DNA from: Cinnamomum chago
Taxonomy: Eukaryota; Streptophyta; Magnoliopsida; Laurales; Lauraceae
DNA length: 64,000 bases
Assembly: GCA_038049695.1 (NCBI GenBank)
Contig: CP142451.1
Location: 43,969,001 to 44,033,000 of the forward strand
Direction: 5' to 3'
Shown here piece after piece: positions 24,537 through 52,552 of this stretch (position 1 is its first letter; every line of letters starts with the position of its first letter). The position numbers were made by a program, and so were the translations under genes. A model generated the notes under the pieces. The model was not told where the DNA came from. It made no database searches and worked only from the letters and a program-made list of their open reading frames with translations.

Positions 24537-24639
24537 TGTCGCGACCCTAGACCGGGTCCACCGAACTAATCCGGGATCGGGACTAAGTAAGAATTATGAA
24601 AAGATGATGTAAATGAATAAATGGTTGATGCCATAAGGC
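24537..24639 (-). mobile_element. Element B 5' LTR, fragment 1
   Basis: On the minus strand this is the last 103 bases of the LTR, ending GGGTCGCGACA before the primer-binding site. It is interrupted at 24640 by element C and resumes at 46885/46890. Confidence 0.8.
24635..24639 (+). repeat. Target-site duplication of element C, left
   Basis: The 5-bp aaggc recurs at 46885-46889, right after the other end of element C. This confirms a single insertion event into the B LTR. Confidence 0.93.
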
Positions 24640-24884
24640 TGATGGTCCCGGCTTTTGTCTTTTTCCAAAGCTGCCTCCGCCCCGGGGCTGACGGGGTATG
24701 GTGGAGGGAAAAAGGAAAAGCGGGCATCAGTTTTTTTGTACGGGTATGCCAATTTCTCTTTTATACTTGGAATTTAGAAATGGTGATCCGGAGATCCACC
24801 TTCACAAGTAAAAAGGGAAATGAAACTTTTTTCTAGTTTTCCATTGCATACATATTTTAATAAAAGAGACAGTTTTTTTATTTT

Positions 24885-24961
24885 GCCGTAAAAGGCGATT
24901 TTTTGGCATTTATAGCCGATTTTTGGCGTTTATAGCCGATTTGTGGCGTTTATAGCCGATT
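24885..24961 (-). repeat. Short tandem motif in C 3' LTR
   Basis: Three clear units and one degenerate unit of about 23 bp, each holding ggcrtttatagccgattt. The copy in the 5' LTR is at 44663-44740. The core (ggc-g/a-t, six bases, agccgattt) is also the core of the minisatellite at 32061-32752. Confidence 0.8.
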
Positions 24962-25455
24962 TACAATTCTCATCAATAATGAAAGACAAGAGTTGTGGTT
25001 TTTTGTCTCTTTAAAAAAAATACAATTTACAACAGAAAAGTAAGAAAAAGGAATTTAACTTCTCATGCGATTGTGGGAGGGCTCATTCAGATCGATGGTC
25101 GCGAGTCATGTATGGGCTCCGCCATCGTCCTTCAGATGAGAACATAGTGCTTGATTTCTTGGCTTGGCTCCAACCTCAGATTTTTAGAGGATAAGGACCA
25201 AGATAAGGTCCTATATCCGGTAAAAGGCTGAGTAGACGGGCTGAAAAGCCGCATCTTGCCATGTTGGATAGAAGGATAGGTGGTCTTTGAGGGGGGGGTG
25301 GCCCCCCAAGGGGCTTCAATCACCTTGTTGAACTTGTTGCAGCAGAGTTTTCTTGAAGGAGCAGGGTTGTAGAGATTTCTCCAAGGATTTTTGAATGATT
25401 TTCTGGCTCTTTCTGTGTGTGTCCCCCTCTTTTTGAAATGCTTGGAGGGGACTCC

Positions 25456-25463
25456 TATTTATA
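25456..25463 (-). promoter_or_regulatory. TATA box in C 3' LTR
   Basis: The minus strand reads tataaata within cctataaatagg, a textbook plant TATA context. It lies about 1.65 kb into the LTR. Confidence 0.6.
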
Positions 25464-27104
25464 GGCCTTTAGGTAGCCTTTAGGAGTGATTTATGAGCCT
25501 TTATGGTAATAAAGCTCATTAAGGGAGGAGTTACGAGTTTAATTGCTTTTTGTTTTGTAACTCCTGACCCTTGGATTTCATTGGCCGGAGGAGAGTCATG
25601 GGCATTTAATCGCCTTTAATCTCCATTATGTTAGGAGTTTCATGGCCTGAATGCCATGATTGCTTGGACTTGTAACTCCTGAACGGAGGCTTCTGATTGG
25701 GCCGTTCAAGATAATGGGTTAATGACCTAATTAACTTGCCATAAACGGGCCAATTGATTGCACTAAGTGGCCACCTTGGTAGCTGAAGAGTCGCGGGCCA
25801 CGTTGCGTCTCTTGGAATTCCCTTTGCGATGATCATCGATGGATCCTTATGTAAATCAACATCAGATGATCATGTAGTTTCAGACATTGGTTGATACCAG
25901 CGGGCCGGCAGCATCTGTCCAGTCGATTTCGCGATCGGGCGGGCAGAAAGTGCACTTTTTGGTTGTTCAGCTGGCGATCAACGAAGTTTTTGAAGTTCTT
26001 GGAAGGATTCCTGTGATCTTGGCGAATATCGGCGAATTTGGAGCCTCAAAAGTCTGAATCTGGAAAAATCACAGGGACAGAACAACTCGTCTCGCGAAAA
26101 CGGACGAAACGGGGGGTCCCGGGGCGAAATCGGCGCCCCGGACCTCCCAGGGTCGCCGGCCCCATGGTCTCCGGCGACCATGGGCCATGGTCGTAGGCCT
26201 GGCCCAGGGTCGCGGGGCTCTGCGACCCTGGGGGGAAAATTGCTTCCCGGGGCTCGTTTCTGGCCGTTTTTCGTCGTTTTTCGCTTCCGCTTTTTTTGTT
26301 TGTTTTCTATGACATTTCTCCACATTTTTGGCTTGATTTCCCTCTGAAAAACATGATGAGAATCCTTGCAAATTGGTTTGCAAAGTTTCCGATTTTCCGG
26401 GAAAAGCCGAGCGCAGAACTGCTGATTTTCCGCCAGAAGCTGAAATAGGGTCAAACGATGTCGGAATGACCTGAAATTTGAGGTGAAGCTTCTTGAGCAT
26501 TAAATAAGACCAACCATGGGCTTTCTTTTGAGTTTTGAAGCCGTTTGGGGTCATGCAAATGCTTGCCTTTGATTTCACTGCGAGGGAAATGCCGAGCTTT
26601 GACTTTTGGTCAAACGATGTCCGATTGACCTGAAATTCGACGTGTGACTCCCTCATCAGTAGTTAGGACCAACCATAGGCTTTCGTTTGAGTTTTGAAGC
26701 CGTTTGGAGTCATGCAAACGCTTGCCTTTGTTTCTCCTGCGAGAGAGATGCCGAGCTTTGACTTTCGGTCAAACGATGTCCGATTGACCTGAAATTTGAT
26801 GGGGAGCCTATTGGAGTTATTTTGAGATGATCCACAAGCTCCGAATTGGGTGCCATGGTCCCGGGGTGGTCCGCCGCCGGGAGCTGCTGCTTAGCTGTTG
26901 GAGAAGTGAAGTTAGGCCAAATGATGTCGGAATGGCCCGAAACTTCATGTGTACCTCTCTTTTGGTTGTTTTGAATGACCTTGCAGTTTTTGTTTGATTC
27001 TGACAAGATCTGATGCTTGAAGTGGCGCCTGCCTATTTTTGGTAGGATGCGGCTCCATGTAGCTTTTGGTGTGAAGAGGCAAAGTGACATTTTTGGTGTC
27101 AACA

Positions 27105-27118: not shown

Positions 27119-28030
27119 GTACAGCGACGATATAGCTTTTGCAGTCGATGTGCCTCGAAGAGAATCTTGAAGAAGAGCTTCTGTCTTGACCAAGAGTCTT
27201 TGAGCATTTTTTTTTTGATGGAGTAGCCTTTTGAGCTTCCAGGGGATTTTATGGTAGTGATAAGAATCATGCACCATTTTGAGGCAAAGTATTGAAGATG
27301 ACATCGGGGATGCGGATTTGGATTTTTGTTTTGACCTTGAGTCCTAACAGGCTGTATGTGGCAAGTTAGGGGGTCGGATTTTGGTTTTGACCGTGTGACC
27401 CAACAAACTGTATGTGGAATGTTGGGGGGTCAGGTTTTGGTTTTTGATTTTGGTCTTGTGACCTAACAAGCTGTATGTGGAATGTTAGGGGACCGGTTTG
27501 ATTTTTGGTGAAATGTCAATTTCAAGGTTTGGCTCAATTTGGCTCATGAGGTGAGATGGTTTTGGATCTTGGAAGCTCATGAGGCTTGGAATTTTTGTAT
27601 GGTCCAATCAACTTAAAAGAGAGGCATGGAACCATTTTTTTTTGTATGCTCTTGGTAAGAGGAATTTTGTCTAAAAGCCACTTTTAGTGCCTAGGTGGTC
27701 AAACCTGGCTCATATGGGCTAACCCATGGGACCTTAAGCTTTGAAGGATGGCTTAGATCTCATATGGTGTCATTTTCGTAAAGAATATCTAAAGATATCT
27801 CTTTTGGGTGGAGAATATCCAAAAATATCTTTACTTTGAGAGATTTTCTCAAGTTTTCTTGATTTTGGGAAAGATTCTCTCAAAATATCTTTCTTTGGGA
27901 GAGAATTTCTCAAAGGATCTTTGTTTTGGGAGAGAATATCCCAAGTTTCCTTTTCTTTTGGGAAGGTTGCTAATTTTTAGCACTTACCTCCTTGCTTTTC
28001 TCTTGTTTCCTCTTTTGGTTTGCTCTCTTC
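27119..28030. repeat. C region between PPT and antisense gene, with two short repeat blocks
   Basis: No conserved gene was seen. At 27318-27500 a unit of about 56-63 bp containing ctgtatgtgg and a run of g is repeated three times. At about 27775-27960 a unit of roughly 35 bp built on gagaatatctcaa/aatatcttt is repeated five or so times. Both lie upstream of the antisense gene and could be part of its promoter region or of the hypervariable 3' UTR known in Tat elements. Confidence 0.6.
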
Positions 28031-28038
28031 TATAAAAG
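28031..28038 (+). promoter_or_regulatory. TATA box of the antisense gene in element C
   Basis: The plus strand reads tataaaag 128 bases before the ATG at 28159. A leader rich in ct and caag words lies between them. The position fits a transcript running opposite to gag-pol. Confidence 0.55.
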
Positions 28039-28158
28039 CAATTGAGGTGGGATCTCTTGCTCCTATTGCTTTCTTTTTGCAAAAGTCTTCAAGAGTTGCT
28101 CTAAGATCAAGAATCCTCCTTCTTCAAGAGTCTTCAAGTTCTTCTTTCTTCTCCATCC

Positions 28159-28278
28159 ATGGCTTCAAGTAAGTTTTTTATTTCTTTTTACAAGAAGTTC
28201 AATGTAAAGAAAGTTTCATCATTTTTTTCTTCTCTTTTTTTTTTTTTTTTTTTTTTGCACGTGTTCTTTTTTTTCTTT

Positions 28279-28310
<32 letters not shown>

Positions 28311-31300
28311 CTCCTTTTTTTTTGCTGCTGTACGGACATGTCCGTACAGCTTTGGGCCGTACGGCCATGTGGCCCATGGGCCACGGCCTGTGGGCTTCGG
28401 CCTGTGGGCCAGCCCATAATTTTTTTCTTTTTTTTTTTTCTTCTTCTTTTTTTAAAAAAAAAAAAAAAAAAAAAACTTTCCTTTCTCCCCTTTTTGTATC
28501 ATCATGATAATGAGGTTTCATGCATTTCAAGATGTTTATGCATTTTTTTTTTTTTTTGTTTGATGCATCAAGATAGAAGGCTAGAGTTTCTATGTTAAGT
28601 CAACATGAATTTTGACTTAGACAAAGTTTGATTTTGACCAAGTTGGGTTGGAATTGGTCAAATTTTGTCAAGGTTTTCCTAGCATCTAGTGCATGATGAT
28701 TTTCTTTTATGCATGATTTTTGGTAAATTGAATTGGGAGCATGATGATGATGCACACCTGGAAATCTTTTGCAAGTCTTGAGATTTGAAGCTCGCAGCAA
28801 TGTTGAGCTCTTTCTTTAGTCTTGCGGGGGTTTCGAGGAGCTTTTTTGCAAGTTTTGGGATTTGAAGCTCGCAGCAATGTTGAGCTCTTTTCCGATTCTT
28901 GCGGAAATTTGAGAAGACTGTCTTGATCTCGCAGCAATGTTTGAGTTCGAGTCTTCTTTGAGAATCCTTCATTGATCATGAGCTCGCAGCGATGTTGAGC
29001 TCATCTTCAGGCTTCCTTTCTTTTCGGGGTGATTCCCTTTTCTTCGGAATTGCCCCGGAGTCATGCCAAAATTTCGCTAGGATTTTTTTTTAGCAAAATT
29101 CTGTCATTCTGTTGATTGATTTTTTTTTTTCAATCTTTGCAGGTAGTTCCTCCAGAACGAACAAGGGTAAGAAGCCCGTTACCGATACACCTCGTCGATC
29201 TGCCAGATCTTCCAATGCTGCTGTACAGCAGGCTTGGGAGAAGGTCCAGTATGTGGAGAGAAACTTGGAAGAGTGTGACTCGCTCAACCGAGATGAGATG
29301 AGACAGCGACTGATCGGTCTCAAGGATGAGGAGTTTTACAAGATTATGGCAAGCAATCGTCCTTGGGTCATGGACGATCAGAGCGTTGTGCCCAAGCCTA
29401 CCTTTTTCTTTGGTGATGCAGCTCCTGATGACTCGTCATATCAAAGGAGATGCTTTCAGTTCTCTTACACAGCCGATGGTGAGGAGAGAACCATTTCTAC
29501 CCGGTCGCCTTTTGATCGTACTATTTCGATCATGAGTCTTTCTCCCACTTGCTCTAAGAGAGAAAATCCTCCAAGCTGGGTAAAGAGGACCACTGTGGTC
29601 AAGACCGGGGTTTTTGTTGGCGGTCCTTCTGGTTATGCAGAGAAGTCGCCTGTCCGTCTGGACATGTTGATGCCGGCCTGCGGCTACCAAGGATCTGATC
29701 ATCCATCGGTTGATTTGAGACCGGTGGGCCTTGGCATTTTCAGGGGCGATGGCAGCAATTGGGTGAAGCCTTTTCGACTTCGTGGCCGTTTCAGTGTTGA
29801 CTCGGGCTGGGAGTCGTGGACTGATCACATCCTGCAGATCGGCGGTGCCATTCTGAAGGAGGCCGAGATTTTTGATGCGGTTCGCGCTTTTAGGCAAACC
29901 GTATTTTTCTCCGATGAGGCTTTTATGGCCATGCTGGAGTCCTTCCTTCCACAAACCAACACCTTCATTGTTACGAATGGTGAGATTGGTTTTTCTTTGA
30001 AGGAGCTGAGTGCCATTACCGGGTTACCCATCCTCGGCAAACTCTATGAGGAATTTATGCCGATTGACAGCGTCCTTGAGGAGCAGTCTGAGGAGTTCAG
30101 GCTTTTGTACTTTCAGCTCGTCGCCTTCTACGATTTTTTGAGGGAGAAGGAGGGCTTGAAAGTCCGGTGTAGCAGTTGGAGGAGTTTCAGCTCTTTGTCT
30201 CCAAACTTTTTTGGCGACGAAGAATCTTCTGAGAGTATGACCCAGGAAGCCAAGACTAAGAATCCGGGGAAGAAGATTTCTGCCATGCGAGAGAATTTGA
30301 AGAACTTTCTCACAAGTACAGACGCCGTTTGCTCCGACATTGTGCTGCGGAGAGACGTTACTGCGTACCTCACTTATTGGCTGGGTGAGGCTGTTTTTGC
30401 TGGAGGAGACGGAACACACATCAGGCCGCATTGTATATTTCCGGCTTGTCAGATGGCGTTCGGAGAGCAGTTGGCTTTGGTGCCTGCTCTTTACTCCTAT
30501 TTGTGCACCGAACTGCAGGCTGCTGCTTTTCTGGTTCGGCTTGGGCTTCCTATGAATAGGGTATTTTCAGCCCATATTTTTTATTCGTGGTATGTGTACC
30601 ACTGTCCCGGCTTCCACCGTTTGGGCGCTGCTCAGGATGATGATTTTTTTTTTTTTTGAATTTGCTGACACATATTTTTGTTTTCTTGTCAGCTGACTTG
30701 CCAGAGGGTTCCGACTTCGAGCCATCTATGGATATGGCTTTCGACGATGCTTCGGATGAGCAAATGGAGATAGAAAGTAATCCGCCCATCATGGAAGAAG
30801 GTATTTCATAGTGATAATCTTGACATTGAATTTTTTTTTTTGACAAGATCATATTCATACCTTTTTGTGTTTGGCAGATTTTCAAGTGACAGAAGAGAGT
30901 CCATCGCTTCCTTCAGAGCCAGAGCCAGGGATGCCAGAAGTTGACCCAGTAATTGGGACTTCTCCAGCCAATTCTGACGCGGCAGAGGCTAGACCTCATG
31001 TTGAGATTCCTTCTCCAGCGGCCCCGATTGGAAAGTGTTCTATTGTTACTCTTCCGATGGGACATGACTTGGGCAGCCAATCGACAGAGAAGGGTGAGTC
31101 TTCATTTGGCCCATCTCTTCAGTATGCGAAGAAGGTGGTGATGCGGGTTTTGAGTTCTTGGATTGAGACCCTCCTTTCTGGACACTTGGATGTTGCACGT
31201 AGCAAGATTCCGCATGTGAAAGAGATTCTCAAAGATGCTAAGGAAGATATTGGTCTGGATGTTACGGACGCCCGGGCGATCGTTGATAAGATCATTGCAT

Positions 31301-31818
31301 TAGGCGACGGATGGTTTGAGACCATCAGCTATCCTGATGACCAGTTCTTCCAAGAAATGTTCCTGAACCCTGCTGAGAAGGCTCAATCGGATTTGAAAGA
31401 GACTACACAGGGCAGGAAGCAGCTGGTTCGGGAGAGGAACCGAGCGGAGTTAGACATCATCAGGCTGCAACATGACCTTAGCATCCTTGATGGAGAGGTT
31501 GAGGAGGCAAGGAAGCATCTCGAACACCGAAAGGCCCAAGTCGCCAGTACGTGGTCCGCCATAACAGAGGCTCGTGACAAGGAGAGTGCTTTGATTCGCC
31601 AAGTTGCAGAGGCCGATCAGATTCTCAATAGGAAGGCTAGAGAGAATGAACGATGGCAGACTGCACGGGATAGTCTTCCTGGTGTAGCAGAAGGGATAGA
31701 GCCTTCTCCAGCTACTCATGGCAGATTCTTGAAGTAGCGTGCCTTGGAGACTCTAACGGATGAAGCCAAGAGTTTGCTTGAGGAACTAAAAGCTTGGCTG
31801 GAGGGCATTTTTGGCTGA
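28159..31818 (+). pseudogene. Antisense gene of element C: plant-mobile-domain-like protein with coiled-coil C-terminus
   Basis: The coding parts can be joined by intron phase. Exon 1 is 28159-28168 (ATGGCTTCAA, then gtaagt). Exon 2 runs from 29143, after ctttgcag, to about 30642. Exon 3 is 30693-30800, and exon 4 starts at 30878. Exon 2 encodes some 500 residues, ending in a block (residues about 265-330: FRQTVFFSDEAF, GEIGFSLKELSAITGLP) that resembles the plant mobile domain (aminotransferase-like family) found in plant proteins and in transposons. Exon 3 is acidic. Exon 4 has a Pro/Ser/Glu-rich stretch and a charged helical region (about 31380-31660) likely to form a coiled coil. Two lesions are visible: no GT donor at the end of exon 2, and TAG at 31735-31737, after which the frame stays open to TGA at 31816-31818. 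The function is unknown; the domain call rests on recognition by eye. Confidence 0.72.
28169..29142 (+). other. Intron 1 of the antisense gene, with T-runs, palindromes and a short repeat
   Basis: The boundaries gtaagt and ctttgcag are canonical, and the exons join in frame. Inside are long T-runs (28230-28320, 28421-28450) and an A-run. A perfect 22-bp palindrome lies at 28328-28349, followed by an imperfect one (about 28355-28390). The word ctcgcagcaatgttgagct recurs at 28791 and 28868, with variants at 28928 and 28983. Confidence 0.65.
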
Positions 31819-32060
31819 GACCCCTCTTTCTCTCTTTTTATATACCACATGTATTTTTTTTTGGTATACATTTTTGTAGTGCTTGTGAACACTTTTCTTT
31901 TCTTCTTTTTTTTTTTTTTTGGTACCACATGTATTTTTTTGGTACTTTTTTTTTTGTTTTCCCTACGCTCACTCAAATATTGTGATTAAAGTGATTGCTA
32001 AATGGGATGTGATCAAAAGTTTGTCATTTTGTGAGAAATCTTTTGACAAATGATTGTTTT
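31819..32060. other. C spacer between antisense gene and minisatellite
   Basis: T-rich sequence with two copies of a taccacatgtattttttt word (about 31843 and 31922). No gene was seen. Confidence 0.5.
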
Positions 32061-32752
32061 GGCATGGGAGCCAGTTTTTGCTTGCGGCATGAAAGCCAAT
32101 TTTTGGGTGGCATCTATAGCCTGATTTGGGTTTATGGCATGAGAGCCAAAATTTTGGATGGCATGGAAGCCGAAATTTTGAGGTGGCGTGGAAGCCGATT
32201 TTGGTGGCGTGAAAGCCAAATTTTGGGATGGCATGAGAGCCAATTTTTTTTGAGGTGGCATGAAAGCCGATTTTGGTGGCGTGAAAGCCAAATTTTGGGA
32301 TGGCATGAGAGCCAATTTTTTTGAGATGGCATGAAAGCCGATTTTGAGGTGGCATGAAAGCCAATTTTTTGGGGTGGCATGAAAGCCGATTTTGAGGTGG
32401 CATGAAAGCCAATTTTTTGGGGTGGCATGAAAGCCGATTTTGAGGTGGCATGAAAGCCAATTTTTGGGGTGGCATGAAAGCCGATTTTAAGGTGGCATGA
32501 AAGCCAATTTTTGGGGTGGCATGAAAGCCGATTTTGAGGTGGCATGAGAGCCAATTTTTGTTTTTGGTGTAAGAACCAGATTTTGTTTTTGGCATGAAAG
32601 CCGGATTTTTTGAAAACCGAATTTTGTTTTGTTGGCATGGAAGCCGAATTTTGATTTTTGGCATGAAAGCCGGATTTTTGATTTTTTTGGCGTGAAAGCC
32701 GGATTTTTGGCATGGAAGCCGGGTTTTTTTTTTTTTGGCGTGAAAGCCAGGT
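32061..32752 (-). repeat. Minisatellite of about 24-30 bp units in C 3' UTR
   Basis: About two dozen units of the form ggcatgaaagccgatttt with variable spacers, often in alternating pairs (agccgattttgaggt / agccaattttttggggt). Long frames on the minus strand here translate to repeats such as FHATPKIG; they are a by-product of the array. Tandem arrays at this position are a known property of Tat elements. Confidence 0.9.
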
Positions 32753-33300
32753 TTTTGGTTTTCAAAAATGCAAGTATCGACTAAAAGTCGCCTCCCTGCT
32801 GAATGGTATTGCAAGTATCGATGGAATGTCGCCTCCTTGCTCATTCGGTTGCGAGTATCGATGGAATGTCGCCTCCTCGCGGATTTGGGTGCAAGTATCG
32901 ACTAAGCGTCGCTTCCCTGCTGAATGGTATTGCAAGTATCGATGGAATGTCGCCTCCTTGCTCATTCGGTTGCGAGTATCGATGGAATGTCGCCTCCTCG
33001 CGGATTTGGGTGCAAGTATCGACTAAGCGTCGCTTCCCTGCTTTTGTCTTCAAAAATTTTGTTTTGTGGGTATCGATGGAATGTCGCTTCCCCACGATTT
33101 TTGAAGTTTGAGGTTTTTTCGAACCTTTGTTTTGTTTTTTTTTTGTTTGTTTTAAAATTTGGGTTGTGGATATCAACTGGAACGTTGCGTCTCCACGATT
33201 TTTGAAATTTTGGGATTTTGGAAGTATCGAATGGGGTTCGCATTCTTCCGATTTTGGGTTTTGCAAGTATCGACTGAACGTCGCTTCCCTGCGGTTTTTG
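32753..33300 (-). repeat. Tandem array with 121-bp higher-order unit in C 3' UTR
   Basis: Monomers of about 40 bp share gcaagtatcgatggaatgtc. Three monomer types (ending cttgctcattcgg, ctcgcggatttgg and cttccctgctg) repeat as a trimer of 121 bp from 32796 to 32916 and from 32917 to 33037, almost without change. More diverged single monomers continue to about 33300. Confidence 0.85.
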
Positions 33301-33672: not shown

Positions 33673-36600
33673 TCAAGGGTAGTACCGCTTCAAGAACTTC
33701 CCATTGATGGGCAGCATACATCTGTTACCCTCCATGTTTAGAAGAGCGTATGCGCCGTTGGAGAAGACTTTGTCGATGATGAAAGGTCCCTCCCATTTTG
33801 GTTCAAATTTGCCTTTGGATTTATTGGCAAAAACCATTGGTCTTTTTACTGTAAGAACCAAGTCTCCCTTTTTGTAGGCGCGTTGCCTGACCTTCTTGTC
33901 AAAAGATCCTGCCATGCGTGCTTGGTAGAGTTCAATGCTTTGTAGAGCTTCGAGCCGTCTCTCATCGAGGTTATCCAGCTCTTGGAGTCTCAATTTGACA
34001 TTGCTTTCTTGCGTCATGTCATTTTGTAGAGATACCCTTAAGGAAGGAATTTGAACCTCCAAAGGGACAACAGCTTCGCATCCATAGACCAAGGAGAATG
34101 GTGTGCTATGGGTTGGTCCTCGAACGGTGGTTCGATAGGCCCACAAAGCTTCAGGCAGTTTGTCGCCCCATTCTCTTTTGTGACTAGAGACCATTTTCTT
34201 GAGGATTTTGCAGAGCGTCTTGTTGAAGGCCTCTGCTAGTCCATTCGCTGCCGGATTGTACGGAGTTGAAGGACAACTTTGGATTTTGTATTTGTCGCAG
34301 AACCTGTAGAATCGGTGATCGCGGAACTGTGGTCCGTTATCATGGACGAATCTTTTAGGTATGCCGAAGCGACAAATGATGTTGGTGCGCAAGAAGTGAA
34401 GGACTGATGACGTCTTCATTTCACTAAACGCGAATGCTTCTGACCACTTGGAGAAATAATCCGTAGCGGCGAAGATGAAGCGATGACCTTTGCTCGATGG
34501 AGGGGAGATAGGACCTATGATGTCCATACCCCAGGCTTCAAAAGGCCATGAGATTGCTGTAGGATGTAGCCATTCCGGAGGCATGTGGACATAATCTCCA
34601 TGAACTTGGCATTGTTGGCAGCGCTTAGCAAATTGCATTGCATCAGCCACCATGGTAGGCCAATAATAACCTAACCTTTTTATCTGATCGTAGAGCTTAG
34701 GCCCAGACTGATGGGCTCCACAAAGACCAGCATGTACTTCTTTGAGTGTTCCCTCACCCTCTTGTTGTGACAAGCAGCGTAGAAGTACTCCATTGTAGGA
34801 TTTTCTATACAGCATTTTTGAAGGAATATCCAAATGAAAGTTTGGGGCTCGTCTTTGGATGCTTACCCGTTCTTTTGGATCTTCAGGTAGGATTCCGAAC
34901 ATTATGTAATCAATGAAGGGATCCCTCCAGTCGCTGATCAGAGGTTTAAGGACGGAGATCCGTCTTCCAACCACTTGGTGGCATTCAGCAACTGCTTGAT
35001 GTGTGTTGAGAGGAGGGAGAATCCTTTTTTGACACACTGTAATTTGCATGTTTTCCCCTTCTTGGATTGCCATAGACGCAGCAAGTCCAGCCAGGGCATC
35101 TGCACGAATGTTTTCACCTCTGAGGATGTGGGTGATGTGACAGATGTCGAACTTTTGTCGAAGCGATTGTGCTTTGTTGTAGTAAGGCAACAGATCGGGC
35201 TTCCTGACTTCAAATTTCTGATTCATCTGGTTGACGATCAGTTGAGAGTCTCCAAAAGCTTCCAGCGTAGTGATGCCGGATTCAAGGGAGAGTTCCAATC
35301 CTATGATCAGGGCTTGGTACTCAGCTGCATTGTTTGAACATGGTTCCAGTAGCGAGAATGCGTGTGGAATCATGTATTTGTCGGGATTAACAAAGAGAAT
35401 GCCAATTCCCGATATTTGATTTCCCTTTTCATTTGTCCTGGTTGTGCCATCGAAGTACATGTGCCAGGAAGTGTTTGATAAGGAAGTCTCCACACTGTAA
35501 ACTGATTCGTCTGGGAGGTCATCCCTGAGTGGAGAATCTTTAGGCAATGGATGCTCCGCGAGGAAGTCTGCTAGAGCTTGGCCTTTGATTGCTTTTTGTG
35601 GTACATACCTAATATCAAATTGTGACAGGAGGATGGACCATTTTGCCAGTCGGGCATTGAGAGAACCTGCTTTTGTGACAAGGACCTTTAGGAGGTTGAT
35701 CCTCGAAATCAGGTACACTGTGTTGGATAGCAGATAGTGATGCAGTTTTTGTACGGCGAACATCACTGCCAAGCATTCTTTTTCGACTGGAGAGTAGCGA
35801 TGCTCTGCACCTACCAACATGCGGCTAAGGTAATATAGAGCAGCTTCTTTTCCCTGGTCATTCTTTTGTGCGAGTAGAGCGCCTAAAGAACAGTCAAGGG
35901 CTCTTGTGTACAAGAGGAATGGTTTTCCAGTTGTGGGGGCAGCCAACACTTGGAGGTTTAGTTAGGTATGACTTGATGTCCTGGAACGCGGCTTCACATT
36001 CAGCATCCCAGACAAAATCGACACCTTTCTTCATTAACCGAGAGAATGGACGGCACTTTCCTGATAGGTTGGAGATGAACCGCCGAATGTATGCCAATCT
36101 TCCTTGGAGCCCTTTTAATTGTCTTAGGGTTCTTGGAGATGGCATTTCTAGGATAGCCTTGACTTTGGTGGGGTCAAGCTCTATGCCAGCTTTCCGTACT
36201 ATGAATCCGAGAAACTTACCCGATGAAACACCGAAGAAGCATTTGAGGGGATTCATTCGCAGTTTGTGTTTGCGAAGTCGGAGGAAGACTTCTCGAAGAT
36301 CTTTGAGATGGTCTTCTTTTCTTTTGCTTTTGACGGCGAGATCATCGACATAACATTCGACCGTCTTGTGCTGCATATCTTGGAATATCTTCATCATAGC
36401 CCTCTGATATGTAGCGCCGGCATTCTTCAGACCGAATGGCATGACAGTGTAGCAATACACGCCAAACGGGGTCCGAAATGCTGTGTGTTTTCCATCTTCA
36501 GGATGCATCTTTATCTGATTGTAGCCAGAGAAGCCATCCATGAATGTCATTCGCTCGAATCCACAGGTATTGTCGATCATCACCTCCGGTATAGGGAGCG

Positions 36601-38830
36601 GGAATTCATCTTTTGGGCATGCATTGTTCAGGTCTCTGTAATCAATGCAGACCCTGATTTGCCCATTTTTCTTTGTCACGGGGACGATGTTGGCCAACCA
36701 TTCAGGATGCTGTTCCTCACGGATGAAGCCAACGCTTTTGAGTTTTTGAACTTCTTGTTCAATTTTGTCCATCACGTCAGGACGGAACCTTCTTTGGCCT
36801 TGTTTGACAGGCTTGATATCTTTTTGAAGATTGAGTTTATGGATTGCTATTTTGGGGTCTAAGCCAGGCATCTCAGCGTAAGACCATGCGAAACAATCAA
36901 CGAACTCATGAAGAAACGCGATATACTCGGGTAACTCATCTTCCTTTATATTCTTGCTTATGAATACAGGACGCGAGTTATCAGGTTTTCCCAAGTCTAT
37001 CTTTTGAACAGAATCTTCTGTTGGAAGATTTGAAGGTGGTTCCTCCACAATATTTTCGGAGGCTTCCAACCCAACAAAGCCTTCTGGAGTTCCAAAGGTA
37101 TCTACAGACCACGGCTCTGCTTTTGTCCATGGGTCTTCTTGATTGGTACTTTTCTCAAGATTTGCTATGAGATGGTCCCAATCACCTGTTGAAACTAGGT
37201 CGAAGTAGGGCACTTCCTTTGGAGACAGTGGTTCTTCTGGGTCAGAGAACCGTGTGTCTGTATCATCGGACAATTCCTCTTCATCATCAAAGAAATCGTA
37301 CCAATTGGATGAACTTCCTGGATCCTTGACGACCAACTCTTCAAAGAGATATCCAGGGAGATCGATGTCTTCATTAATATGAGATGTTGAGGCTTGGTTG
37401 GCAAGATGATTTTGCAGCCTTTGTGTCAACTGTCTCAAGGGGGCGTCAGGATCATACCCCAGCCCATATGAAGACTTTTCTATGTGGCGGTGGGGTTTCC
37501 AACCTTCCAGTTGACTTTTGGTCAGGGTTGGTTCCAATGGCGTGATAATACCACGGCCATCTCCCAAATCGGTTGGGTTCTGAGCGTCGTAGCCCATTTT
37601 CTTCATGATAGCTTGCGCCATTGGACTATACAGGGATAGTTGAGGCATACCTTCATTTTTGAAAGGTTCAAGCGAAGAATTTGATGAAGAAACTCCCGAT
37701 TTATGGAAGAAGATTGGCTTTTCTTCTGCTGATGTCGCTGGAACAACGAAGGAAGCAGATGCCGGATCTTCTATGTCAACGGTTGTCTCCATCGGAGTGA
37801 GAGCGGGCTGAACTTGTTGATCATCAGCTTGGCTTGACGATGTATCGTCTTCTGGCTCTGAGTCCGAATCCGTGTCTTGCAAGATAGACACGAAGGAGAC
37901 AGCAAACTTGCCCCCAGCCCTTTGTTTTGTCTTCTTTCCTTTGGTGGTGATCACCAGAGGCTTTGAAGACTTGAGGGAGACCATGAAAGGAGATTGATCA
38001 TTCTCTTCGGTTTTGATAGAGGGTTTATTTTCTTCCGGTGATTGCTGAGGAGCCTTGCCTTTGTCTTTCTGGAGATTTTCGGCAAAGGATGCTGTTTCTT
38101 CCTCCCTTTCTTCTTTTTCATCTTTGTACATCTGAGCATCTGCGAAATAGACTTCTTTGCCTTTGAAGGGCTTTTTGTCTGCAAACACTCGATGTATCAA
38201 GCCGTCATTGCCAACGAACTTGATGCACTGATGTAAAGTCGAAGGGACAACACCATTCTCGTGTATCCAGGGGCGTCCGAGAAGGATGTTGTAGCATGAA
38301 GGGGTCTTTATCGCATAGACAGTGACCTCGGAGATAAGATCACCGATTTGCAACTTGAACCTGATTTTGCCGATCGGCCTTTGAGCGCTGCCATCATATC
38401 CAAAGATGGACACAGACGTGTGGCTCAGCTTACTAGGCGGAATGCCCAGTTCTTCGAGTGCCGAAGTGGAGATGAGGTTGAGTGCAGAACCTGGATCGAT
38501 CTGGATTTTGCGTACTGGCACCTCTTTGATGTACCCGGTGAAGTACAGGGGTCGGTTGTGCTTTGTCTCGCCTAGCAGGAGGTCTTCCTTGGTGAAGGCG
38601 ATGGTTGCACTTGCTGCTTTTTGAACCGAGAGGCATTCGATGCAGGATCCTTCAGTTTTCTTCTTTTCTCCTTTTGAGGGAGCTTTTGATTTTTTGACCC
38701 TATGGTCCATTTCAATTTGTAGGACTTGTGGGGCATGTTTGTCGACATCCGCATCCAGCATTTGTAGTTCTGAAATGAGACTATCACGAGTCTGTGGTGA
38801 CATTCGTAACAAGTCTAGGATGTGCAGACG
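33673..38830 (-). pseudogene. Element C pol: protease, RT, two RNase H domains, integrase
   Basis: On the minus strand the first frame (38812 to 35894) holds an aspartic protease (IQIDPGSALN near 38490; YNILLGRPWIH near 38290) and then a long acidic spacer. RT follows, with VCIDYRDLNNACPKDEFPLP near 36640 and the catalytic YVDD near 36360. The second frame (35949 to 33673) starts with an RNase H whose first catalytic Asp is replaced (LLYTRALDCSLG). A complete archaeal-type RNase H comes next (YFDGTT, NNAAEYQAL, FGDSQLI, RADAL). Integrase follows, with its H-H-C-C finger, MDIIGP, HDNGPQF and GLAEAFNK. The two frames overlap because of one extra base at about 35950-35951, in the RT-RNase H link. 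Loss of function of the first RNase H together with gain of the second is typical of the Tat lineage. Confidence 0.9.
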
Positions 38831-41688
38831 TGCTGAATCAAGTCGTACTTGAAAGCCTCCTTGGGGCCTGCATTTTCATTATTCTTGCCACTAGGGGCGT
38901 TTACAACTTGTTTTCCTGAAGGATTTACATAAGAAGCAGAAGGTTGCTTGTAGTTTTTGTGGTAATCCCGGCCAGAACGGGTACCTCTACCAACTTCAAG
39001 AGCTTCTGGAGAAGGGTCTTTGTTTAGAAGATCACCCTCGAGATCGAGGGGTTGTTCCTTCTCATTTGCTGAAGATTTCTCTGTGTCAGCATTGCCATCT
39101 TCAGTAATTGTGTTGCATGGGGCATTTTCCGGGAGCAAGTCCTGAACAGCATCCAGCAACTTTCCTTCTTTGTCGAATATTTTGTTGGTCCAGACATCAC
39201 CGATGAGATCGGGCATTTGGGACCAAGTGACCGAATTTTCTCCGAAGAAGATTTCACCGGCTGGAATTTCTTCAAGGTGATCGGTCGGAAGAGGTTTGAG
39301 TTCCGATGTCACTGTTCCAGGAGACGAAGCCTGAGAAGGTGAGGAATTATCATCCTGAGTTATTGCATTGCAAGTAACTTTGACGGAAGATGCCTCCAAG
39401 ATGAACTGTTGGGAATCAGATTCGTCCTCAGATGTAAGAGGATCGTCGATCCAACAGCTTTCTTCGTTTTCCGGGGTTACCGGAGGAGATTCCTGTAGAT
39501 TTTCAGGAACTTCCGGTGCTGGGTTGTGACGAAGCTGATTGATGCGACCTTGTTCTTGCTCTATAGCAAGGTACTGCAAGATCCTTGCGTATTCATCGAG
39601 ATCAGGCACGGGAGCCAAATCTTCTTCTTCGTCTGCTCCTTGCAGTTCAACATGGTTGGGTTCCACTGGAGTATTTTCTTGGACAGCCTCTTGGTCTTCT
39701 TCATCATCAGACCAGGATCCTTGCGGCTGTAATGGGTTATACCAGATTACTGGCATAAGATGAGATTCAGGGATCCATTCCTCGTCGGAGAGATATTCTC
39801 CTGTTTCGAGGGATTCTTCCCACTCATCGATGTCACTGGCGGTGTCACTGGACTCATATCCATCCATGGAGAATCCGACCACTGAGTTGCAAGAGTATGA
39901 TGCCCCCTGCGTAGTTTCATCTTTGAGATGTGGTGGCATGAAATCACCAAGAGTGAATTTTCTTGCCGCCTTTGAAGCCTTAGGAGAGGACTCTTCTGTT
40001 GCCCCCAGTGAAGCGGTAGAGGAGTTTTCTGCCTTTTCAGCGACTTCTTGCTTTTTCGGAGCTTTCTCCTGCTGTTTGAGCTTGCGGAGTTGTCTCCTGG
40101 CTTGCCTTCGCTGTTGAGCGGTTGACTTTGTTTTGACGACCTCCCAATTTTCATCTTCTAGGAGATCGGGGTGTACCCATATGGGCTGTCCTTCTGATGT
40201 TGGATATGGAACCAACTCTTGGGACGTTTGGGTCATCTTTATCACCTTGAAGGAAGTAGTGATCTTCTCTTTTGGTGATTTTTGTTTTTGTCCACACGAC
40301 ACCATGTTGACGGAGGCAGACCCATAGTTCTTGTCGAAGGTAATGACTCCGTTTTTCCACATCTCATTTATCTTCTCTCTCACAACAAAACATTGATTGA
40401 GAGGATGCGAGACCATCTGATGGTATGGGCAGTACCGAGGATCGTTGGTTTTGCCAACATCTCCTGGTCTTTTGGTGTCAGGCAATGTAAGTTTGCCATT
40501 TGCTAGGAGTGCCCCAAAGATTTCTTCAACGTCTTCATCAAACGGGTATTTCTTTTCTACCCGTTCTCTGAAGGCATCAGAGAGTTCAGGCTTTTTACCT
40601 GTAGCTTTGTTTTCATCTTTCTTTGGCTGCTGAGGAGCTGACTTGGTTTGCACATTGAGAACCTCATTTTTCTTTGGTTTTGAGGTTGCAATGGTAGTCG
40701 GCTCTTTCTTTAATGATTTCTGACTGTTGAGGTCTTTGATCACCGTTTCAGCTTCCATAGATGCTTCCAGGAGTTCTCCCAGGTTCTTTGATTTGTTGCC
40801 GATGATCATGGAGCGGATTCTTGCTCTCATGTTGTTTCGGCAGATGTCGACCAGTGATGCTTGTGGCAGTACATCGGAGCATTTGTATGCCATTGCCTTC
40901 CACTTGTGAATGAAGTCATATGTTGACTCATTCTCTCCCTGTTTTAGGCTGCAGAGCTGAGCCATAGTAACAGGATGATCCTCACCTTTGAAGTGGGTTA
41001 GGAAGCGTGTCTCCAACATGGCCCAATTTTGAATGGAGTCCTCCGGCAGAGTGGAGTACCAATCAAAGGCCGTACCTTTTAGGGTACTTGCAAAGAGGCT
41101 GATTTTGAGGGCATCTTGATCCGCAATAGCTCCCGTCAGGATCTTGAAATGGATGACGTGTTGTCTGGCTGAACCTTTCCCCGTATATGTTTGGAGAGTA
41201 GGTTGCTTGAATTTTGTAGGGAACGGGACCGAGTCCATCCACAAGGGATATGGTGGCTTGATCCCATGCTCCTTTAGTGTATCCTCTTCTTTTGCTTTGG
41301 CGAGGATATCGTCAACGTCCTTTTTGGTAAGGGCGCGTGACTCACTGTTTTCCGCATTTTCCTCGTCGACTTGATGGCTCGGAGGAGCTTCATTGTTTTG
41401 TGGACGCTGAAGATTTAGGTTCTCTATTAGAGTCTCTATCCTCTGCTGCCCTTGCTCCAGCTGCTGGATGCGTGCGGTTACGTCATCATGCGGCGGAGGT
41501 TGTTCAGTATTTGTGACCAAGACGTTCATTCTTCGAGAGTCGAAAGAGGATACAGTCTTGGTGACTGAGCTGGAGCTCGTTCTTTTAGATGAAGAGCTCG
41601 AAGAGTGGTCACTCCGACGTCCTTGGCTTGAAGAAGCGGGAGAGTTTTCTTTATGTCTTCGTGTCCGGGAGACGCTGCGAGTCACCGG
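38815..41688 (-). pseudogene. Element C gag
   Basis: The frame is open for 957 codons, with no ATG at its start; it follows ORF1 in the same frame after a single TGA. The first in-frame ATG is near 41527. The N-terminus is Ser/Arg-rich, then a short coiled coil (IQQLEQGQQRIETLIENL). The capsid domain spans about 41220-40700 (PTLQTYTGKGSARQHVIHF, ALKISLFASTLKGTAFDWY). A Cys/His cluster (YCPYHQMVSHPLNQCF) lies near 40400 where Tat elements carry a similar motif. A 500-residue acidic tail follows. The frame ends in FKYDLIQHVCTS, part of a block that continues in the pol frame (ILDLLRMSPQTRDSLI). An apparent one-base shift at about 38828 separates gag from protease. Confidence 0.82.
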
Positions 41689-42636
41689 TCATCTGACATG
41701 GATTTTAGTTGCTGACTTCTGGCGTTTTCTGGTTTTTCCAACCATATGAACAGCAACAAGTTGGTCGGGTCTTTCTTTTTCGACCCATTTTTGGGAGACT
41801 TGAAGTGCAGAATCCTGGGTTCTTTGCTTCTCTAGTCTCTTTTGTCGATATGCCGTTCGGCGACGCATACGACGAGCGATTTGAGCTTTGGTTAGCTCTG
41901 GCTGTGCCCTAGTAATGAAGGAAGTAGTCCCTGGTGCGCAGCAGCCAAGCTTGTCTTCTTTGAAGATGGGCAGGGACAGGATCTGGACGCGGTCCTTTGC
42001 CTGTCGCAGCGAAGCTTTGAATTTTGCGAGTTCGGCTCCCGTTGAGAGGAAGGGTCGACTCGCAGGTGTGAAGGCCTTGACAGGTTCTTGCGGAGGCCTT
42101 ACGATGCACGATTTGATTTTGGGCTTGTATGAGCAAGCCGGCTCGTGCTGAGTTGGTTTTGTTTGGCGGAGGGTAGGCTTCTCCTCTTTCATGTAAGCAA
42201 GAGGGTAGAACCGGTTCTCCTTGAGAGGGGCCAGGTATGCTGGCTTTGCTGATGTTTGTGACCTTCGCTGTTTGGGTGAAGGCCTTGGAGACCAAGTCTT
42301 TGAGCAGACCTGGTTTCTTGCTGGTTGAGGCTTTGCAGGAGCACTACGGGCCTCAGGTTTCTTGATGATCGCCCTTGGTATCACTGTAGTGATACGTTGA
42401 GGGGCGGTTCTCTGCTTCTTGGCAGGTGCGGTTTCTTCTGCGGGTAGTGGGAATGGTCCCAATGACCCGAAGACAATGGTCCGGGGAGTAGAGTTTGACC
42501 CGGTGTCTTCTGAGTTGCCGAGGGAAATGACGCTTCGGCAGCTGGCAGGGCGCTTGTAAGTGCGCTTGGTTTGTTTGTCTTGGAGCATGAGCTGGTACTT
42601 GTTCTCATCAAAGGTGATGGTTAATGAAGCTGCCAT
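41689..42636 (-). CDS. Element C ORF1, basic protein of unknown function
   Basis: The ATG at 42636 opens a 315-residue frame on the minus strand. A possible splice acceptor (cttgtttcag) lies 17 to 26 bases upstream. The N-terminus (MAASLTITFDENKYQLML) is followed by a long Lys/Arg/Pro-rich stretch with an Arg-rich helix near the end (RRMRRRTAYRQKRLEKQRTQ). No known domain was recognised. An extra ORF between the 5' LTR and gag is characteristic of Ogre-type Tat elements, and its role is not known. Its TGA stop (41691-41689) is directly followed by the gag frame in the same phase. Confidence 0.7.
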   Translation of the reverse strand: MAASLTITFDENKYQLMLQDKQTKRTYKRPASCRSVISLGNSEDTGSNSTPRTIVFGSLGPFPLPAEETAPAKKQRTAPQRITTVIPRAIIKKPEARSAPAKPQPARNQVCSKTWSPRPSPKQRRSQTSAKPAYLAPLKENRFYPLAYMKEEKPTLRQTKPTQHEPACSYKPKIKSCIVRPPQEPVKAFTPASRPFLSTGAELAKFKASLRQAKDRVQILSLPIFKEDKLGCCAPGTTSFITRAQPELTKAQIARRMRRRTAYRQKRLEKQRTQDSALQVSQKWVEKERPDQLVAVHMVGKTRKRQKSATKIHVR

Positions 42637-43020
42637 TGTTAGTTTTTGGAAAACTTCTGAAACAAGACCATATCCATTAGTAATCACAAGAATATGGTGA
42701 TCATAAATGGAAAATACTATGGTTTCGCCTTTTCAAGTCGCCCGAGGGGACATGGCCCAGCCCAAGCAATATGAGGAAGGCAGAAAAGCCATAGAGGGCA
42801 CAATTGTTCTAAACGCAGGTAGGGTCAGCTCAGAATGAGTGTCCCAGTGACTGCTAGAAGCAATTGTGAACCTTAATTCAAATTACCGAGAAGCAAAGCT
42901 CACTCAAGGTAAAATGATATAAGGTTGAGATACAAATGTGTCGGTTGCGAATACAGTAGACCCGAAAGGGCGTACTAGCACCGCTAGGCACAAATGTTGC
43001 AAATCGCATCCTTGGAAAGG
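42637..43020 (-). other. C leader between tandem array and ORF1
   Basis: Non-coding leader. A candidate splice acceptor lies at 42653-42662 on the minus strand. No other feature was recognised. Confidence 0.45.
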
Positions 43021-44260
43021 ACACGAGATGGGATTTTTGAAAGGTCAAGATTGGATTCATAGGAGAGAGCAAATGGTATTCCAATCCGAAAATGAGCTCA
43101 ACATTTCTGCGAGCTCGAAAGTCCGAAAAGGAAGGAACCAGGATTTCTCAAATGTGAATCCAAAAGTGACGGAAGTTTTTTTTTTGAAAGTGTCAAGATT
43201 GGACTTTATAGAAGAGAGCAAATGGTATTCCAATCCGAAAATGAGTTCAACATTTCTGCGATCTCGAAGTCCGAAAAGGAAGGAACCAAGATTTCTCAAA
43301 TATGAATCCAAAAATGACAGAAGTTTTTTTTCTTTTTTTTTTTTTCTTTTTTTTTTTTTTAAGAGTTCACATAGATCTCCAATTCGATCTTATGAAACCT
43401 CAGTTGATAGATCAGCCCCCAGGTAAGGGTAGGATTACTTAATGAACCCGTTTGGAGGACCCTTGCCTAGAACAGTCTAGCTGTCTCCACACTCTGGACA
43501 AGGCTTTTCTTAGATCCACTTTGGTCAAAGAACGCAATTGGTGCAACCTTAGTGGCTTTTTTTTTGAAAGATTTTTTTTTATTATGGATTCATAGAAGAG
43601 AGCGAATGGTGTTCCATTCCGAAAATGGGTTCAACATTTCTGCGATCCCGAAGTCCGAAAAGGAAGAAACCAAAGTTTCTCAACTTAAACCCAAAAGAGG
43701 AAAATCTGAAAATTTTTTGTAAATCAGATTTTGTTTTTTTTTTTTATGGATTCATAGAAGAGAGCGAATGGTGTTCCATTCCGAAAATGGGTTCAACATT
43801 TCTGCGATCCCGAAGTCCGAAAAGGAAAAAACCAAAGTTTCTCAACTTAAACCCAAAAGAGAAAAATCTGAATTTTTTTTTTTAAATCAGATTTTGTTTT
43901 TGATTTTTTTTATGGATTCATAGAAGAGAGCGAATGGTGTTCCATTCCGAAAATGGGTTCAACATTTCTGCGATCCCGAAGTCCGAAAAGGAAGAAACCA
44001 AAGTTTCTCAACTTAAACCCAAAAGAGGAAGATCTGAAAATTTTTTGTAAATCAGATTTTGTTTTTGATTTTTTTTTTATGGATTCATAGAAGAGAGCGA
44101 ATGGTGTTCCATTCCGAAAATGGGTTCAACATTTCTGCGATCCCGAAGTCCGAAAAGGAAGAAACCAAAGTTTCTCAACTTAAACCCAAAAGAGGAAAAA
44201 TCTGAAATTTTTTGTAAATCAGATTTTGTTTTTGATTTTTTTTTTTAGAAACAAGAAAGA
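43021..44260 (-). repeat. About 165-bp tandem array in C 5' leader
   Basis: Units contain ggattcatagaagagagcg, a conserved middle (ccgaaaatgggttcaac, cgaagtccgaaaagg) and a T-rich end. Four close copies start at 43586, 43748, 43914 and 44081 (spacing 162, 166, 167). Two diverged copies start near 43053 and 43201, separated from the others by unrelated sequence. Open frames reading through it are not kept between units. Confidence 0.9.
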
Positions 44261-44417: not shown

Positions 44418-46884
44418 TGATGGTCCCGGCTTTTGTCTTTTTCCAAAGCTGCCTCCGCCCCGGGGCTGACGGGGTATGGTGGAGGGAAAAAGGAAAAGCG
44501 GGCATCAGTTTTTTTGTACGGGTATGCCAATTTCTCTTTTATACTTGGAATTTAGAAATGGTGATCCGGAGATCCACCTTCACAAGTAAAAAGGGAAATG
44601 AAACTTTTTTCTAGTTTTCCATTGCATACATATTTTAATAAAAGAGACAGTTTTTTGATTTTGCCGTAAAAGGCGATTTTTTGGCATTTATAGCCGATTT
44701 TTGGCGTTTATAGCCGATTTGTGGCGTTTATAGCCGATTTACAATTCTCATCAATAATGAAAGACAAGAGTTGTGGTTTTTTGTCTCTTTAAAAAAAATA
44801 CAATTTACAACAGAAAAGTAAGAAAAAGGAATCTAACTTCTCATGCGATTGTGGGAGGGCTCGTTCAGATCGATGGTCGCGAGTCATGTATGGGCTCCGC
44901 CATCGTCCTTCAGATGAGAACATAGTGCTTGATTTCTTGGCTTGGCTCCAACCTCAGATTTTTAGAGGATAAGGACCAAGATAAGGTCCTATATCCGGTA
45001 AAAGGCTGAGTAGACGGGCTGAAAAGCCGCATCTTGCCATGTTGGATAGAAGGATAGGTGGTCTTTGAGGGGGGGGTGGCCCCCCAAGGGGCTTCAATCA
45101 CCTTGTTGAACTTGTTGCAGCAGAGTTTTCTTGAAGGAGCAGGGTTGTAGAGATTTCTCCAAGGATTTTTGAATGATTTTCTGGCTCTTTCTGTGTGTGT
45201 CCCCCTCTTTTTGAAATGCTTGGAGGGGACTCCTATTTATAGGCCTTTAGGTAGCCTTTAGGAGTGATTTATGAGCCTTTATGGTAATAAAGCTCATTAA
45301 GGGAGGAGTTACGAGTTTAATTGCTTTTTGTTTTGTAACTCCTGACCCTTGGATTTCATTGGCCGGAGGAGAGTCATGGGCATTTAATCGCCTTTAATCT
45401 CCATTATGTTAGGAGTTTCATGGCCTGAATGCCATGATTGCTTGGACTTGTAACTCCTGAACGGAGGCTTCTGATTGGGCCGTTCAAGATAATGGGTTAA
45501 TGACCGCATTAACTTGCCATAAACGGGCCAATTGATTGCACTAAGTGGCCACCTTGGTAGCTGAAGAGTCGCGGGCCATGTTGCGTCTCTTGGAATTCCC
45601 TTTGCGATGATCATTGATGGATCCTTATGTAAATCAACATCAGATGATCATGTAGTTTCAGACATTGGTTGATACCAGCGGGCCGGCAGCATCTGTCCAG
45701 TCGATTTCGCGATCGGGCGGGCAGAAAGTGCACTTTTTGGTTGTTCAGCTGGCGATCAACGAAGTTTTTGAAGTTCTTGGAAGGATTCCTGTGATCTTGG
45801 CGAATATCGGCGAATTTGGAGCCTCAAAAGTCTGAATCTGGAAAAATCACAGGGACAGAACAACTCGTCTAGCGAAAACGGACGAAACGGGGGGTCCCGG
45901 GGCGAAATCGGCGCCCCGGACCTCCCAGGGTCGCCGGCCCCATGGTCTCCGGCGACCATGGGCCATGGTCGCAGGCCTGGCCCAGGGTCGCGGGGCTCTG
46001 CGACCCTGGGGGGAAAATTGCTTCCCGGGGCTCGTTTCTGGCCGTTTTTCGTCGTTTTTCGCTTCCGTTTTTTTTTGTTTGTTTTCTATGACATTTCTCC
46101 ACATTTTTGGCTTGATTTCCCTCTGAAAAACATGATGAGAATCCTTGCAAATTGGTTTGCAAAGTTTCCGATTTTCCGGGAAAAGCCGAGCGCAGAACTG
46201 CTGATTTTCCGCCAGAAGCTGAAACAGGGTCAAACGATGTCGGAATGACCTGAAATTTGAGGTGAAGCTTCTTGAGCATTAAATAAGACCAACCATGGGC
46301 TTTTTTTTTGAGTTTTGAAGCCGTTTGGGGTCATGCAAATGCTTGCCTTTGATTTCACTACGAGGGAAATGCCGAGCTTTGACTTTTGGTCAAACGATGT
46401 CCGATTGACCTGAAATTCGACGTGTGACTCCCTCATCAGTAGTTAGGACCAACCATAGGCTTTCGTTTGAGTTTTGAAGCCGTTTGGAGTCATGCAAATG
46501 CTTGCCTTTGTTTCTCCTGCGAGAGAGATGCCGAGCTTTGACTTTCGGTCAAACGATGTCCGATTGACCTGAAATTTGATGGGGAGCCTATTGGAGTTAT
46601 TTTGAGATGATCCACAAGCTCCGAATTAGGTGCCATGGTCCCGGGGTGGTCCGCCGCCGGGAGCTGCTGCTTAGCTGTTGGAGAAGTGAAGTTAGGCCAA
46701 ATGATGTCGGAATGGCCCGAAACTTCATGTGTACCTCTCTTTTGGTTGTTTTGAATGACCTTGCAGTTTTTGTTTGATTCTGACAAGATCTGATGCTTGA
46801 AGTGGCGCCTGCCTATTTTTGGTAGGATGCGGCTTCATGTAGCTTTTGGTGTGAAGAGGCAAAGTGACATTTTTGGTGTCAACA
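44418..46884 (-). mobile_element. Element C 5' LTR
   Basis: This 2467-bp LTR is nearly identical to 24640-27104. By-eye comparison finds about 16 differences. It carries the short motif block at 44663-44740 and the TATA box at 45234-45241. Confidence 0.93.
45234..45241 (-). promoter_or_regulatory. TATA box of element C 5' LTR
   Basis: The minus strand reads tataaata inside cctataaatagg. This is the likely promoter of the ORF1-gag-pol transcript, with the start some 30 bases downstream on the minus strand. Confidence 0.6.
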
Positions 46885-46889
46885 AAGGC
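46885..46889 (+). repeat. Target-site duplication of element C, right
   Basis: aaggc, matching 24635-24639. Sequence to the right resumes the B LTR. Confidence 0.93.
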
Positions 46890-52544: not shown

Positions 52545-52552
52545 TATATAAA
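52545..52552 (+). promoter_or_regulatory. TATA box of E LTR 1
   Basis: tatataaa within cattatataaatgatagag. It is conserved in all E LTRs seen and lies about 720 bases before the LTR end. Confidence 0.5.

Follow-up and report, generated by a model that had tools for sequence, protein, structure and literature searches.

Within a 64,000-nucleotide stretch of the Cinnamomum chago genome (contig CP142451.1, positions 43,969,001 to 44,033,000 of the forward strand; hereafter "the window"), a plus-strand gene for a plant mobile domain (PMD) protein lies opposite to gag-pol, between pol and the 3' long terminal repeat (LTR) of an Ogre-like retrotransposon. We consider it probable, at roughly 65%, that this is a broken copy of an antisense accessory gene carried by the Ogre-like family and that the product is likely a nuclear regulator. 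The complete gene, as seen in other copies, has five exons; its mobile domain and tail are under purifying selection, and parts of it have been exchanged between subfamilies. PMD open reading frames (ORFs) in Ogre elements and antisense ORFs are already known; the introns, the exchange of tails, and a motif array shared with the gag-pol leader appear to be new.

The genome searched amounts to 1.06 Gb in 14 contigs, and 40 of 1931 first-look candidates were scored, the window copy included. The other 39 are called sister copies here, and counts over 40 rows refer to these 39 together with the window. The protein relatives are 56 distinct sequences from three protein searches, each scoring only its best 7,989-7,994 candidates; 53 of the 56 come from Persea americana (avocado). 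One PMD protein, P0003, is recorded under Yersinia pestis, on a short contig; plant proteins are its relatives, and plant contamination is its most likely source.

In the window copy, the parts of the gene are as follows.

28031-28036, plus strand: TATA box (TATAAA) of the antisense gene
28159-28168, plus strand: exon 1, 10 coding nucleotides, with ATG at 28159 and the donor GTAAGT
28169-29142, plus strand: intron 1, phase 1, the acceptor AG ending at 29142
29143-30643, plus strand: exon 2, front part only, the mobile domain being truncated by a deletion
30634-30643, plus strand: deletion junction, the 10-bp repeat AGGATGATGA
30644-30692, plus strand: remnant of intron 3, with a T tract and acceptor common to sister copies
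30693-30800, plus strand: exon 4 of the complete gene (exon 3 of the initial annotation), matched by 25 of the 56 relatives
30801-30877, plus strand: intron 4, phase 1, donor GTA and acceptor AG each found in 38 of 40 rows
30878-31818, plus strand: exon 5 (exon 4 of the initial annotation), the long-helix tail, matched by 30 of the 56 relatives

The landmarks named in the initial annotation (TATA at 28031, ATG at 28159, a 10-nucleotide exon with gtaagt, and acceptors at 29142, 30692, and 30877) are all in the sequence, and the reading frame carries on across the exon 1-2 join and from the penultimate exon into the last. The four-exon architecture drawn from them stands only in part: the sites are real, but the complete gene has five exons and the window copy is a deletion derivative. 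What had been exons 2 to 4 are the front part of exon 2, exon 4, and exon 5, and a 114-nucleotide exon 3 was missed. Scored against a splice consensus, the first donor agrees at 8 of 9 positions, a value reached by 2 of the 339 GTs in the region. There is no good in-phase donor for the earlier exon 2-3 join because exon 2 is truncated by the deletion; an in-phase rescue donor was considered and rejected, the best in-phase GT reaching only 6/9. GC content is 49-50% in the exons and 23-35% in the intron stretches. A 521-codon frame runs on the plus strand, a length reached in 0 of 500 simulated sequences (longest simulated, 283), and a 310-codon frame is present on the minus strand there too, within tandem repeats at 31969-32901. 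The proposal that exon 2 encodes a plant mobile domain is borne out by a PF10536 match of 53.1 bits (E 3.7e-14; curated cut-off 34.9), whose best stretch covers profile positions 73-164 of 347 and is thus a partial domain. Exon 5 of this copy has an in-frame TAG at 31735-31737, past which the matches run on, to 31809-31812, in 12 of the 30 relatives matching the exon.

Comparison with the sister copies reveals what the window copy has lost. Some 1.2 kb missing from it is held by 37 of the 39, after which the sequences realign; the copies L028 and L039 extend past the breakpoint (~92% over 830 sites) and are rearranged further on. In the sister copies, exon 2 goes on for ~1 kb and is followed by a donor, the 114-nucleotide exon, and a further intron. 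The related protein P0001, 97% identical over exon 2, has ~290 further residues where the window meets the T tract and a stop, and 13 avocado proteins spanning both sides have 109-378 extra residues there (median 339). The breakpoint lies at 30643/30644. In the 28 sister copies in which both were found, one AGGATGATGA lies in exon 2 and another where intron 3 begins, at a spacing of 1213-1220 bp, and the deletion likely took place between these short direct repeats, via template switching or slippage. We rejected a four-exon gene without any loss, since the missing exon is present in sister copies.

Measured on the copy that supplies the reference coordinates, the complete gene has exons of 10, 2505, 114, 108, and 941 nucleotides, giving 3678 coding nucleotides or ~1,225 codons, and introns 2-4 measure 84, 72, and 78 nucleotides. 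All four introns are phase 1 (after the first base of a codon), and skipping any one of exons 2, 3, and 4 would therefore leave the reading frame intact. RNA of the gag-pol strand is what gets reverse transcribed, and the introns would survive retrotransposition because antisense splice signals are unread in that RNA. At each splice site, between 37 and 39 of the 40 aligned rows have the canonical sequence.

Acceptor 1, CAG: 39 of 40 rows
Donor 2, GTATG: 37 of 40 rows
Acceptor 2, AG: 37 of 40 rows
Donor 3, GTAT: 37 of 40 rows
Acceptor 3, CAG: 38 of 40 rows
Donor 4, GTA: 38 of 40 rows
Acceptor 4, AG: 38 of 40 rows

Exon 1 and its donor match exactly in 37 of the 40 rows; one row has GTGAGT as donor, and two lack the exon. 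Of the 38 rows that have exon 1, 31 show TATAA upstream and the other 7 CATAAA; the TATA is also present in the mosaic copy L035 and in all 4 other divergent or reference copies that have exon 1. Among the divergent copies, the splice sites are canonical except in 1 of 7 rows at acceptor 2.

The predicted product would consist, in order, of the plant mobile domain, a basic patch resembling a nuclear signal, an acidic linker, and a long-helix tail. P0001 matches PF10536 at 61.3 bits over a full-length domain (profile 72-346), and the avocado proteins P0013 and P0037 reach 23.7 and 20.8 bits, below the curated cut-off. Of the 34 copies with an exon 2 divisible by three in length, 31 have the basic patch, RRKKRRRGQRR in the linker; it is no longer present in the window copy. 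In exon 5, a helix is predicted over residues 166-265 of the product, with a block confidence (predicted local distance difference test, pLDDT) of 88-98 for most of it. This predicted 100-residue helix is most naturally taken as a coiled coil, which supports the tail proposed in the initial annotation, and we make no claim on oligomerization. A search of PDB folds with the tail gave 0 of 61 matches at E <= 0.001, the PDB sequence search with P0001 gave one match (E 0.21), and scans of genome contigs and viral contigs gave no lead.

How widely the gene is spread bears on whether it might be a host gene captured through transduction by a single element. Genic PMD proteins do exist in angiosperms (PMC5418596, in the text available), which would provide a source. 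Yet the gene is found in the 39 other copies examined, in this genome's divergent copies too, and at many avocado loci, and its introns speak against the copying of a spliced host mRNA. We reject capture by a single copy, the gene being family-wide, and regard this origin as highly improbable.

Selection was assessed by comparing four divergent copies (L048-L051) with one reference; any codon containing a gap or a stop was skipped. For the mobile domain (codons 131-700), the ratio of nonsynonymous to synonymous substitution rates (dN/dS) is 0.124, 0.164, 0.156, and 0.155, and for the tail 0.342, 0.295, 0.310, and 0.332, each with p < 1e-7. The first 130 codons give 0.27 (p 0.12), 0.17, 0.20, and 0.12; the linker 0.23, 0.34, 0.67 (p 0.44), and 0.72 (p 0.46); and exon 4 0.20 (p 0.07), 0.51 (p 0.21), 0.20, and 0.27. 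Between divergent copies (four pairs), the mobile domain gives 0.18, 0.18, 0.20, and 0.56 and the tail 0.22-0.26; the pairs compared are not independent of one another. In L035, the part of exon 2 from codon 401 onward has a dN/dS of 0.24 (p 4e-20). The mobile domain and the tail are under purifying selection: the comparison of related elements that the initial annotation had called for places both far below 1 between subfamilies.

The same comparisons show that gene parts have been exchanged between subfamilies. The mobile domain of L048 differs little from that of the reference (dS 0.056), its tail strongly (dS 1.1). L035 shares approximately the first 500 codons with the reference and nearly its tail (dS 0.067), while the second part of the domain and the linker differ from it, with dS up to 1.27. 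We infer that the route of exchange was recombination or template switching.

Selection at the amino-acid level also bears on the possibility that the antisense unit acts mainly as RNA, by pairing with gag-pol RNA or by feeding silencing small RNAs, with the protein of minor importance. An RNA role for antisense ORFs is considered in a review (PMC7264820), and 175 phased small-RNA loci are reported for tea PMD genes (PMC10673657), both as given in the text available. Such selection would be needless for an RNA function, and we place this explanation among the unlikely ones, somewhat below the two discussed further on.

If the gene is indeed an accessory gene of the family, it would be driven from its own promoter-like region, and its product might enter the nucleus and regulate the element's own transcription or silencing. 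Several observations weigh against this reading. Transcription and splicing of the antisense gene are themselves something we infer from sequence. AlphaFold2 modelling of P0001 failed (mean pLDDT 41) and lends no structural support for a function. Of the eight relatives in which the beginning of exon 2 can be seen, only one (P0006) has a micro-exon-like start, and the avocado models P0007, P0009, and P0010 take intron 1 sequence as coding. Constraint is not significant in two of the four comparisons for the linker, two of four for exon 4, and one of four for the first 130 codons, and the domain value of 0.56 belongs to the closest pair, L050-L051 (p 0.099). Among 34 young copies, the comparison of shared with singleton variants gives p 0.29 for exon 2 and p 0.78 for exon 5 (this test and the diversity figures below leave out L028, L032, L035, L039, and L047, which are rearranged or mosaic); over all 39 sister copies, variants present in three or more give p 0.06 for exon 2. 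Finally, exons 2-5 are open and in register in only 20 of the 39 sister copies, and 14 of the 39 carry a stop.

These stops, the broken state of the window copy, and the want of clear constraint among young copies would also suit a relic, that is, a gene useful to the family until recently whose present copies are without current function. The 20 sister copies with exons 2-5 open speak against it, and only 16 substitutions in 2465 aligned sites separate the two LTRs of the window copy (Kimura two-parameter distance 0.0065), which points to a recent burst for which no long decay is needed. On balance we consider a relic unlikely.

A further lead is a 27-nucleotide motif formed by an inverted repeat (core TCGCAG[AC][AG]ATGTT), of which the window has ten copies.

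28786, 28863, 28923, and 28978 (span 28786-29004), plus strand: four copies of the motif in intron 1
43092, 43241, 43625, 43787, 43953, and 44120 (span 43092-44146), minus strand: six copies in the gag-pol leader
28019-28036, plus strand: TATA region, identical at 18 of 18 bases to the leader repeat at 43205-43222 (minus strand)

Each copy is oriented with its own transcript, plus in intron 1 and minus in the leader. A model built from the ten recovers all of them (E <= 1e-7), and the next match in the 64 kb is no better than E 0.097. The best minus-strand alignment of intron 1 and leader scores 44.0 bits, reached by 0 of 300 shuffles and 0 of 22 control stretches; the plus-strand alignment, at 26.8 bits, was reached by 193 of 300 shuffles. 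In the window, GCTCTCTTCTAT occurs in the TATA region and five leader repeats only. Nine of the ten window copies fold to the same hairpin and the tenth to a similar one, with z-scores of only -0.7 to -3.2 and loops of the GNRA type (GAAA in the leader, GCAA and GCGA in the intron). Over 6 distinct rows, 92.6% of cells pair, a figure as high in 5 of 500 shuffles. Covariation is weak: both sides change in 1 of 9 pairs, and 83 of 500 shuffles are as high. Intron 1 also has a 24-nucleotide perfect palindrome at 28327-28350, the sole one of at least 20 nucleotides in the window, which is exact in 30 of 40 rows, altered at one base in 4, and not found in 6.

The arrays extend beyond the window. Two divergent leaders were found, with arrays of four and six motifs (L053, fetched as a third, had no match to the element), and in divergent copies the intron arrays comprise two to four motifs, some of them weak (three at E 0.006-0.016). 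The avocado proteins P0007 and P0010 each contain four translated traces of the intron array, and three other models contain one each. The sequence TCGCAGMAATGTTGARCYC occurs 4,637 times in the genome versus 0 for the reversed control. By eye, among the first ~100 places listed, there are seven pairs of leader-type and intron-type copies, the window included, on opposite strands and 13-27 kb apart; among the same places, the members of one neighbouring pair, C1:41226948 / C1:41239499, share a strand and may come from different elements. Diversity among young copies is 0.0072 at the end of intron 1 versus 0.0066 in exon 2, with no sign of motif constraint. The antisense 5' region and the leader may have either a common ancestry or a common regulatory site.

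Were it a regulatory site, the spliced PMD long-helix protein might recognize the motif in intron 1 and leader and so control both units, by analogy with the VANC proteins of VANDAL elements. There too, an element-encoded protein goes with short motif arrays of like orientation in introns and upstream regions (PMC5735166; PMC10398659), and that layout is what we find here. According to the available text of these papers, VANDAL is a DNA transposon, the protein is a different one, and binding and loss of silencing are shown for VANC, whereas here the likeness is one of sequence layout. We hold such self-recognition to be doubtful, about on a par with the relic; if it were true, exchange of the tail exon between subfamilies would alter the partner or the target.

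The element that carries the antisense gene has the following parts.

24640-46884, minus strand (gag-pol strand): Ogre-like LTR element, 22.2 kb
24640-27104 (2465 bp) and 44418-46884 (2467 bp): its LTRs
24635-24639 and 46885-46889: flanking 5-bp target duplication
33676-42732, minus strand: gag-pol region, four ORFs, with Pfam matches

The Pfam order on the minus strand is gag, protease, reverse transcriptase (RT), ribonuclease H (RH), archaeal-type RH, and integrase; the ORF at 41692-42732 has no confident domain match, and the other three code for gag, for protease-RT, and for RH-archaeal-type RH-integrase. Protease-RT lies in a different frame class from gag and RH-integrase, so gag-pol of the window copy may also be broken, or it uses a frameshift. 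A stretch starting TGG, a candidate primer-binding site, sits just inside the 5' LTR, and Rfam gave 0 matches at gathering score over the whole element. An archaeal-type RH between RH and integrase, as here, is described as a mark of the Ogre and Retand groups (PMC6317226, available text). The order of these domains and the size of the element support the Tat/Ogre type given in the initial annotation, an assignment made without an RT tree. A PMD extra ORF is reported in 57% of surveyed Ogre elements (same source), and the window element carries one; the Retand survey, as far as its available text goes, gives LTRs of 315-1,194 bp and an antisense TRP28 ORF (PMC11963269), and our Pfam search of the window listed no TRP28 (PF04195) match up to E 1. 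LTR size and PMD ORF fit Ogre rather than Retand.

Several known systems resemble the antisense gene, and we compare them as they are described in the text available of each source. The nearest are the PMD extra ORFs of Ogre and the PMD-A clades, where PF10536 likewise comes from Ogre-type Ty3/gypsy elements (PMC6317226, PMC5418596); some PMD clades are encoded by Gypsy elements only (PMC5418596). Those are described as ORFs only, unlike the five-exon gene with its 10-nucleotide exon 1, selected tail, and tail exchange. The TRP28 ORFs of Retand and gene23 of Grande are also antisense, between pol and the 3' LTR, with tandem repeats nearby (PMC11963269; PMC7264820), and gene23 has its own promoter and a nuclear product (PMC7264820). 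Here, in contrast, the domain is PMD rather than TRP28, the gene is apparently spliced, and the element and its LTRs are much larger. HBZ of human T-cell leukemia virus type 1 is another spliced antisense retroelement gene, with the start codon in a first exon of short coding length and a nuclear regulator as product (PMC1459196); its promoter is in the 3' LTR and its protein is of the basic leucine zipper type, so the analogy is without homology. The literature searched, supplements aside, gave us no account of an antisense PMD gene with introns, and likewise none of tail exchange between subfamilies or of an intron 1-leader motif array.

Plant LTR elements have long been known to carry antisense ORFs to which no function is assigned, and a 2020 review calls for the study of antisense and spliced transcripts (PMC7264820, in the part available). 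With an exact exon map, protein-level selection, and a candidate cis motif, the question of function becomes testable. Since host PMD proteins are reported to act in transposon silencing (PMC5418596, PMC7156037, in their available text), a PMD protein that selection keeps in an element would bear on the contest between element and host.

Tandem arrays lie on either side of gag-pol, at 32060-33042 between the antisense gene and pol (units of ~48 and 121 nucleotides) and at 43034-44245 in the gag-pol leader (units of 148 and 167 nucleotides). Outside the element, at 50411-64000, blocks of 1.1-3.5 kb are repeated at 98.8-99.4% identity, adjoining a 1585-codon ORF at 53398-58155; they look like repeats from a second element.

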